DNA of 64,000 nt, taken from positions 1 to 64,000 of the forward strand of contig SCQE01000063.1 of the NCBI GenBank assembly GCA_004321915.1, read 5' to 3'. The notes beneath the pieces are model-generated. The model was given only the letters and a program-made list of their open reading frames with translations. It did not search any database and was not told the origin of the DNA. Every line of letters starts with the position of its first letter. The stretch's first letter is position 1. This document shows positions 33,657 to 35,344 of this stretch, piece by piece. Both the position numbers and the translations under genes were made by a program. This stretch comes from Nitrospirota bacterium (lineage in GTDB: Bacteria > Nitrospirota > Thermodesulfovibrionia > Thermodesulfovibrionales > Dissulfurispiraceae).

Positions 33657-35012
33657 CTAATCTTCTTTGGTCACTTCAATCTTTCCGTCTTTGGCTATTT
33701 TCACCGTAGCGTTCAAGAAGCGTGCCTTGAACCCTTTTTCTTTAAGCGTGTTGTAGGCTATTTCAGCCCTTGCGCCGGTTGAACAATGGATAATAATCTC
33801 TTTTCCTTTCGGCAGCTCGGCAATCCTATCGCCGATATCCTGCGTTGGTATATTCTTAGCGCCTTTTATCATGCCTTCTTCAGCTTCGTCCGCATCCCGG
33901 ACATCGAGAACGAATTTGTCTTTCGGAATAGACGCGGCAATCGCCTTGAATTCTTCGGGGAGGATCTCTCCGGCACGCGGTTTGGGCACATAAACTATTT
34001 CTGCTTTAAGTTTGTCCTCTTCTACGGAATTGCCGGACTTTTTCCATGCGTCTATCCCGCCCGCAAGGTATGCTGTATTTACATAACCCCAGCCCCTGAC
34101 AACCTTAAAGGCCTCTTCCATTGTCTGCTGGGAGGCGCAGTAAATAATAATCGGGGCCTTTTTATTCTCCGGAAATTTAGACTTCATGTCAGCAAGCTTT
34201 TTTAGCGGTATGTTGACCGCGCCTTTTATATGCTCTTTCTTTGCGTAATCCGCGGGTCTGACATCTATCAACACATGCGGGATGTCTTTTTCTATCATGC
34301 CTTTAAGATTTGCGGCTGTAGACGCGACAAGGTTGCCGCCCTTTTTCCATGCAGGCAGGCCGTCAACAAATACCTTTACGTTTTTGTATCCGAGTTTCTC
34401 TGCTTTCCCGGCAGAGGATGGACTCAGCCTTCAGGTGGGGCCTGCACAATAGAAAACTATGACCTTATCTTTTTCTTTAGGAAGTTTTTCTATGTTTTTA
34501 TCAAAATCCGCATCGTAGATGTTTATGGCCCCCGGAATATGCCCTTCATTGAATCGGGGCGCCGGCCTTGAATCGACCATAATGTAATTCCCCTTATCCG
34601 CTCCAAGCGCAATGAGTTTTGAAAGTTCTTCCGCTTTAATAAGTTGTTCGTCTTTTATTTTTGCAGGCGGCTTTACGCTTATCGCTTCGGCATAAAGCTT
34701 GCCGTCTTTTTCCACAAAACTTATCGCAATCTCTTTTTCTTTCGGTATCTTGTTTACAGGCTGTTGCCAGTTGTTGATTTTTGTCTTTTCATCAAACTTT
34801 ACTATCCATGTAGCGCCTGTTTCGATCTGAATAGCTTCGGCCTTAGCCGAAACACTGCCGACCGTGCCCATAAGCTTATTTTTCGCCGCCTGATGGCACT
34901 GCGTGCAGGGCTTAAGAATCTGCGGCTTCTCGGCTGCGAACGCCATAGCGCTGCAAAACAGCATTACGGCTGCAACCGCAAGCGCCTTTTTCAAAAAAGT
35001 GTTTTTTGCCAT
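33657..35012 (-). CDS. Periplasmic triple-rhodanese (seleno)protein, Sec at codon 194
   Basis: One frame of 452 codons is interrupted only by UGA at 34431-34433 (codon 194). It encodes a signal peptide (1-26), a CTQCH heme-c-type motif (36-40), a spacer domain, and three rhodanese domains. Domain 1 (about 127-235) has the active site FYCAGPT-U-RLSP, where Cys homologues that I recall carry Cys at the UGA position. Domain 2 has C292 (IIYCASQQT) and domain 3 C410 (IIHCSTGARAE). Homology continues unbroken across the UGA (AGKAEKLGYKNVKVFVDGLPAW-type), and a SECIS-like hairpin follows. Strong AGGAGGA at the ATG. A periplasmic sulfur/selenium transferase is likely; the alternative is a true nonsense mutation. 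Confidence 0.85.
34392..34425 (-). promoter_or_regulatory. Candidate bacterial SECIS element
   Basis: In mRNA sense, five bases after the UGA, GAGT (34422-34425) pairs with ACTC (34392-34395). Above it CTCTGC/GCAGAG forms a perfect 6-bp stem with the loop CGGGAAA (34404-34410). The G in the first two loop positions and the loop about 20 nt from the UGA match the known bSECIS layout of fdhF. Not tested by folding software. Confidence 0.65.
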
Positions 35013-35095
35013 TTTTATCCTCCTACTTTTTTATTTGCAGGCCAAGCTGTCTAAACCCACAATTTATAGGTTAATTATATCACAAATTTTAGGAA

Positions 35096-35344
35096 ATGCT
35101 GCTCTGTTTAGCGGTTACTGCTATAACCGTTTATGCCGCCGACAAAACCGGCATCACTTGGTTGGGACATTCCGCATTTAAAATTACTACAACATCAGGC
35201 AAGGGCCTGCTTGAGGTGCCGATGCATCACAGCACTTTCCCGGCGCTGAAAGGCACGGCAGCAGAATTCGAAAGAGAGATGAAGGTACTCGGGCTTCAGA
35301 CCGGGATGAAGAATCTTGCTGTTGGCGAAACCATTTACCGGTAA
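35096..35344 (+). pseudogene. UPF0173 metal-hydrolase remnant with internal deletion
   Basis: 82 codons. A secretion signal (LLCLAVTAITVYAA) leads into TGITWLGHSAFKITTTSGKG, the N-terminus of UPF0173 beta-lactamase-fold hydrolases. It jumps straight to the family C-terminus (VPMHHSTFPALKG, AEFEREMKVLGL, LAVGETI). About 150 residues, including the HxHxDH zinc site, are missing, although the reading frame is kept. It cannot be catalytically active and is best seen as a deletion remnant. AGGAA precedes the ATG. Confidence 0.7.

Follow-up and report, generated by a model that had tools for sequence, protein, structure and literature searches.

Does the UGA that separates two neighbouring rhodanese genes of a Nitrospirota bacterium end a protein, or is it read as selenocysteine (Sec) within a larger one, and what would such a protein do? 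The question is raised by a locus on the minus strand of the window, by which we mean the whole 64,000-nucleotide stretch of DNA analysed here. Standard gene calling yields two ORFs of 193 and 213 aa, split at the UGA, and a preliminary description had joined both into one periplasmic triple-rhodanese selenoprotein.

One reading frame with an internal UGA

The joined frame extends from an ATG at 35012 to a TAG ending at 33657 and comprises 451 codons. Its sole internal stop is a UGA at codon 194, which falls within the first rhodanese domain, in its loop YC189AGPT-U-RLSPSS.

35019..35024, minus strand: AGGAGG ribosome-binding site, from the sequence, 6 nt upstream of the ATG
33657..35012, minus strand: complete 451-aa coding frame including Sec194; single in-frame UGA, codon position shared by orthologues of 440-455 aa
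34431..34433, minus strand: UGA codon read as selenocysteine 194; conserved codon, dN/dS on both sides, family alignment

Orthologues were searched in 60 relatives and then in 296 genomes of the phylum with a threshold of E ≤ 1e-60. They were found in 49 of the 296 genomes, which belong to many families within a single order and, outside the class, to one family (f23). A total of 58 members was aligned, and 52 were scored once fragments and highly divergent cases had been dropped. While C189 is invariant (52/52), position 194 is encoded by UGA in 42 members and is Cys in six, Gly in one and Arg in one; the remaining two have a shortened CX3C loop. Thus, a sulfur or selenium partner of C189 is kept in 50 of the 52, and only two members are left without any. 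As the members are related, these counts are not independent, and our conclusions draw in addition on two controls described below, the synonymous null and the slid helices.

In comparison with the sister genome, dN/dS amounts to 0.10 before and 0.07 after the UGA. The joining of the two apparent genes thereby holds: only the UGA interrupts the frame, the homologous codon is mostly UGA as well, and both halves evolve under low dN/dS. A true stop codon, a recent mutation or a sequencing error, with a pseudogene or an independent gene as the second half, would agree with the two ORFs from standard gene calling. However, this reading is already refuted by the comparison across relatives, since 42 genes from separate assemblies share the codon, purifying selection acts on either side, a SECIS element follows and Cys replaces Sec in six members. 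We rejected it and regard its remaining probability as negligible.

The view that Sec stands in place of the second Cys of a CxGPxC-type loop is likewise borne out. The loop YCWGPACN of Bacillus halodurans BH2092 (PDB 3nhv; see also 3o3w) aligns with YCAGPTU and has Cys at the positions of both C189 and U194. BH2092 differs in carrying Cys for Sec and in consisting of one domain only.

Several further copies were observed during the survey. In two genomes of one genus (G005 and G017, loci L036 and L038), the copies are degenerate, with no partner residue at position 194 (CTGPAG, CAGPGR); the G005 copy has lost C410 as well, which suggests a decay of function in this genus. The window's own genome encodes a second triple-rhodanese paralogue (L145 8567-9964, contig C81), which is 37% identical and has a CxxCH motif, an in-frame UGA in the loop CNSYGU and its own loop-G hairpin. 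In genome G023, tandem paralogues occur (L039/L144), one with Sec and without CxxCH, the next with CxxCH and a CX3C loop without Sec, and genome G011 has one CX3C copy and one UGA copy on different contigs. Genome G008 encodes a short, single-domain exported rhodanese with the CX4U loop CRGAGU (L129 3100-3690, minus strand), 5 kb from its triple-rhodanese gene, and in other genomes several short rhodanese frames with one UGA each were found. Judging from these frames, the CX4U loop probably also occurs outside the long triple-rhodanese protein.

SECIS element and selenocysteine decoding

A SECIS hairpin was located downstream of the UGA.

34390..34427, minus strand: bacterial SECIS hairpin, apical stem 34416-34411/34403-34398, loop 34410-34404; from the fold and from covariation in 41 UGA genes

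Its apical stem is CUCUGC/GCAGAG, and the loop CGGGAAA starts 20 nt past the UGA. In the UGA genes, with one exception, the hairpin is found 14-17 nt past the UGA with a G within the first two loop bases. The hairpin of the preliminary description is hence present and conserved in the UGA genes, but its span is 34427-34390 rather than 34425-34392. Folding the window's hairpin as a single sequence gave no significant result (z = -0.98, with 35 of 200 shuffles equally good), whereas the synonymous null and the covariation across the whole set clearly did. For the synonymous null, the 14 codons after the UGA were redrawn per gene, weighted by the gene's own codon usage, in 1000 draws. The summed stem score of the 42 UGA genes was 759, compared to 441 ± 24 in the null (maximum of 518 in 1000 draws). 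At least five pairs together with a G in the first two loop bases were present in 41 of the 42 UGA genes, where synonymous recoding would give 8.9, and the loop-G hairpin occurred in just 2 of 11 non-UGA members. In the 41 aligned sequences, 93% of the cells pair, and 23 double-sided changes were counted against a shuffle mean of 9.0; helices slid out of position pair at 41-56%. The loops alternate between an AGTAA type and a C-GTC-G type with an extra pair, and the stem is unchanged around both. The overall folding energy was only weakly informative against the synonymous null and gave no separation of the UGA members (mean z of -1.36) from the others (-1.22), but the position-specific stem with its loop G does separate them.

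The window's genome (3.6 Mb, 99.6% complete) encodes all four components that were looked for: tRNA-Sec (selC; 71 bits, anticodon tca according to ARAGORN), SelA (616 bits), SelB (357 bits) and SelD (362 bits). The SelD gene (L146, contig C39:117781-118704) contains an in-frame UGA itself. With the conserved UGA, the Cys homologues, the SECIS and the full Sec machinery, comparative sequence evidence establishes that the triple-rhodanese frame is a real selenoprotein, as the preliminary description had claimed.

The distribution of the machinery among carriers was compared as well. G211 (99% complete) has the Cys form CGGVTC, and in this genome neither SelA, SelB nor a tRNA-Sec above the cut-off was found, nor a SECIS at its place; in terms of gene content, this is the expected outcome of lost Sec decoding. 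The same explanation was dropped for G227, another Cys form, as tRNA-Sec and SelA are present there and SelB alone is missing. Three carriers of the UGA form (G023, G237 and G134) gave no SelB match. In each, tRNA-Sec is matched strongly (63-71 bits), and SelA is present in G023 together with weak, partial matches to SelB spread over two contigs, so that assembly loss is the simplest explanation. Of the Cys forms, G004 and G016 retain SelA and SelB, and a stem is still present where the SECIS would be, though one of the two lacks the loop G; this pattern suggests recent Sec-to-Cys changes.

Domain anatomy and genomic context

The signal-peptide-like N-terminus, the CTQCH motif and the three rhodanese stretches were all recovered.

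34935..35012, minus strand: signal peptide, residues 1-26 (MAKNTFLKKALAVAAVMLFCSAMAFA), recognised by eye from its basic start, hydrophobic core and terminal AxA
34893..34907, minus strand: CTQCH, residues 36-40 (CxxCH); C36 and C39 in 49/52, H40 in 50/52
34674..34880, minus strand: N-terminal beta-barrel, residues 45-113, CusF/OB-like fold by AlphaFold2 and Foldseek, no Pfam family
34323..34649, minus strand: rhodanese domain 1, residues ~122-230, loop C189-A-G-P-T-U194; PF00581, AlphaFold2 pLDDT mostly at least 90
34017..34319, minus strand: rhodanese domain 2, residues ~232-332, nucleophile position C292; Cys in 9/52, otherwise mostly S/A/G/D
33702..33968, minus strand: rhodanese domain 3, residues ~349-437, loop C410-S-T-G-A-R; C410 and R415 each in 50/52

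The signal peptide region forms a helix (residues 5-22) in the structure model, and the orthologues have similar N-termini; export to the periplasm is therefore predicted. The motif that follows is CX2CH or, in one genus-level group and a few other members, CX4CH, a spacing also known among heme c motifs. CTQCH in a protein with predicted export is what a c-type cytochrome would have, and a heme on CxxCH/CX4CH is plausible. The adjacent barrel resembles CusF and not a cytochrome. Its best Foldseek match in the PDB is CusF 3e6z (E of 1.6e-4, TM of 0.60 by query), AlphaFold2 modelled residues 28-122 with a pLDDT of 92-96 across most of the barrel, and the N-terminal part had no Pfam match at E ≤ 1. 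The CxxCH is not required for the Sec site, since two Sec-containing paralogues lack it.

The PF00581 profile matches three stretches with 182 bits (3.4e-54). Within the six-residue rhodanese loop, C189 comes first, at what we take to be the usual nucleophile position, and Sec194 comes last; Sec194 is therefore the CX4U partner and not the usual nucleophile. Of the two downstream residues that the preliminary description placed in its relay, C410 is conserved, but C292 is not. Thus, domain 2, which lacks its loop nucleophile in most members, is probably non-catalytic. The full-length model reached a pLDDT of 86.9 and a pTM of 0.67, with confident domains but no confident mutual arrangement, including the distance between C410 and C189.

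The window gene lies between yceI-like and gmhA-like genes and appears monocistronic. Neither a constant neighbour nor a conserved operon was found at most relatives' loci. In one genus-level group (L133, L187, L188, L189 and L047), a multiheme cytochrome c gene begins 40-50 nt downstream; its product has about 630 residues and about eight CxxCH motifs. At four of these five loci, single-domain rhodanese genes are found upstream in divergent orientation. At L047, DsrE-like, TusC/DsrF-like, TusA-like and YeeE/TsuA-like genes follow the cytochrome c gene. This gene set matches the composition of the YTD cluster, a proposed marker of sulfur disproportionation (PMC12998232; PMC13047784). The window's genome has dsrA and a TsuA-like gene. 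A role in sulfur-compound respiration is plausible, as most carriers have dsrA and a multiheme cytochrome c gene directly follows in the one genus-level group. The presence of dsrA as such was discarded as a functional link, as it is confounded by phylogeny: dsrA is near-universal in the order.

Two observations were made beside this locus. A YeeE/TsuA-like thiosulfate transporter homologue of the window's genome (L198 1462-2556, contig C39:91567-92604) is a probable double-Sec transporter: it has two in-frame UGAs (RYUMN and GGUTVGH), and at both positions the L047 homologue carries Cys (FCMN, GGCNVGH). On the plus strand of the window, an 82-aa ORF (35096-35344) joins the start and the end of a metal-dependent hydrolase of the metallo-beta-lactamase fold. 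The hydrolase is intact in the sister genome (L126 807-1634, 275 aa, NF001911 at 228 bits), and the ORF looks like an internal-deletion remnant.

Proposed function and relation to known systems

The best explanation, to which we assign a probability of roughly 0.6, is an exported triple-rhodanese selenoprotein that uses its Cys189-x4-Sec194 pair as a persulfide/sulfane redox enzyme. Direct support extends to the Sec codon, the SECIS, the machinery, the paired conservation of 189 and 194, the conservation of C410 and the non-conservation of C292, while we infer the export, the redox cycle, the substrates, the direction and the electron partner. The sulfane sulfur, supplied by polysulfide, thiosulfate or a small persulfide, would be bound as a persulfide on C189 of domain 1, either directly or via a handover from C410 of domain 3, which would act as a second sulfur acceptor. 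Sec194 in the same loop would then attack the persulfide, releasing sulfide and leaving a C189-S-Se-U194 bond. This step is suggested by the combination of a Cys nucleophile and a conserved Cys/Sec partner in the loop of an exported sulfurtransferase. A periplasmic donor, such as a c-type cytochrome or a thiol partner, perhaps acting via the protein's own CxxCH, would reduce the S-Se bond again; outside the one genus-level group this donor is a guess, because most genomes have no conserved operon partner. The chemistry would be reversible, so that the pair could also oxidise sulfide to bound sulfane sulfur, and domain 2 would be structural. A more specific proposal is put forward tentatively, at odds clearly below even: a periplasmic sulfane/sulfide oxidoreductase that depends on Sec, is linked to c-type cytochromes through its own CxxCH heme or a partner, and serves dissimilatory sulfur reduction or disproportionation in Nitrospirota. 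To our knowledge, no enzyme has been established there for this step.

The preliminary description had favoured a relay through all three domains, and a version of it was weighed in which Sec194 itself is the carrier, as a perselenide or selenylsulfide, in a rhodanese chain that passes on sulfane sulfur or selenide without net redox chemistry. The several rhodanese domains per chain and the conserved C410 would suit such a relay, and a selenium-substituted rhodanese appears in literature cited by PMC5877670. However, a passage through C292 was rejected, as the residue is missing in 43 of the 52 members and at most two sites are left. Moreover, a second chalcogen beside C189 meets the need of a redox pair rather than that of a carrier, no selenium-handling gene was found in the neighbourhood, and apart from the single Sec residue there is no sign that the protein deals with selenium. 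We therefore consider the relay unlikely.

Two further readings are less probable still, and to a similar degree. Cys189/Sec194, the CxxCH and the CusF-like barrel could form a periplasmic site for soft metals (Cu, Ag, Hg) or metalloids on a rhodanese scaffold, in line with the likeness of the N-terminal domain to CusF and SilF and with the binding of soft metals by selenols. CusF uses Met ligands, though, and these are not conserved here despite the similar fold: no Met column of the barrel is conserved in at least 30 of the 52 members. In addition, the catalytic loops of rhodanese domains 1 and 3 are conserved, and no adjacent metal efflux genes were recognised. A periplasmic protein of general function, either a thiol/peroxide oxidoreductase or a stress protein, and unconnected with sulfur metabolism, would be in keeping with most selenoproteins of known function being redox enzymes and with a gene that often stands alone amid housekeeping genes. 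The conserved loop nucleophiles C189 and C410 speak against it, as does dsrA in 46 of the 49 carriers, yet the latter is common across the whole order.

We know of no Sec in YnjE, EanB or the four-domain thiosulfate sulfurtransferase of Pseudomonas aeruginosa. These multi-rhodanese chains (PDB 2wlr, 6ktv, 1yt8) are among the top Foldseek matches, but their whole packing is not superposable (TM of about 0.2-0.25), and they have no CxxCH domain. Rhodanese selenoproteins as such are already known, and a 2026 review describes five forms with the motifs UxxS, UxxG, CxU, UxxG and UxxxxU (PMC13188914). They likewise have Sec in the rhodanese active-site loop and bacterial Sec decoding, but none is CxxxxU, a string that is absent from the review; CX4U in a triple-rhodanese frame is not among its forms. 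Form 3 corresponds to NF041203 (LYCAU), which requires CxU; with the motif CAGPTU and 88 bits against a cut-off of 115, the protein is not a member. Neither does it belong to form 5, TsoB (NF045694), as domain 1 matches with 80.7 bits at a cut-off of 805 and has Cys at the first position. TsoB is a rhodanese/DsbD fusion-like selenoprotein with UxxxxU (PMC13188914), whereas three rhodaneses with a CxxCH/CusF-like N-terminus are present here and Pfam returned no domain besides rhodanese, hence no DsbD-like part. The spacing of four residues is the same, and the pair in TsoB therefore fits the thiol/selenol redox reading of C189/U194. ExtH of Geobacter (GSU2940), encoded in an ext cluster with multiheme cytochromes, is likewise described as rhodanese-like and of equal size (49.0 kDa; PMC5877670). 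No ExtH family was among the NCBIfam matches at E ≤ 0.01, and the selenoprotein reported from ext clusters is the cytochrome ExtKL. A literature search, with most subscription journals outside its scope, returned no paper on a triple-rhodanese CX4U architecture.

Since standard annotation splits the gene at the UGA, it would present a selenoprotein conserved in dozens of Nitrospirota with dsrA as a pair of rhodanese fragments. Natural Sec, Cys and degenerate copies make the role of selenium testable. If the proposed mechanism is true, Sec would be the resolving residue in a rhodanese loop whose nucleophile is an ordinary Cys, and the protein would be a candidate for the missing periplasmic step by which these bacteria reduce or form sulfur-sulfur bonds.
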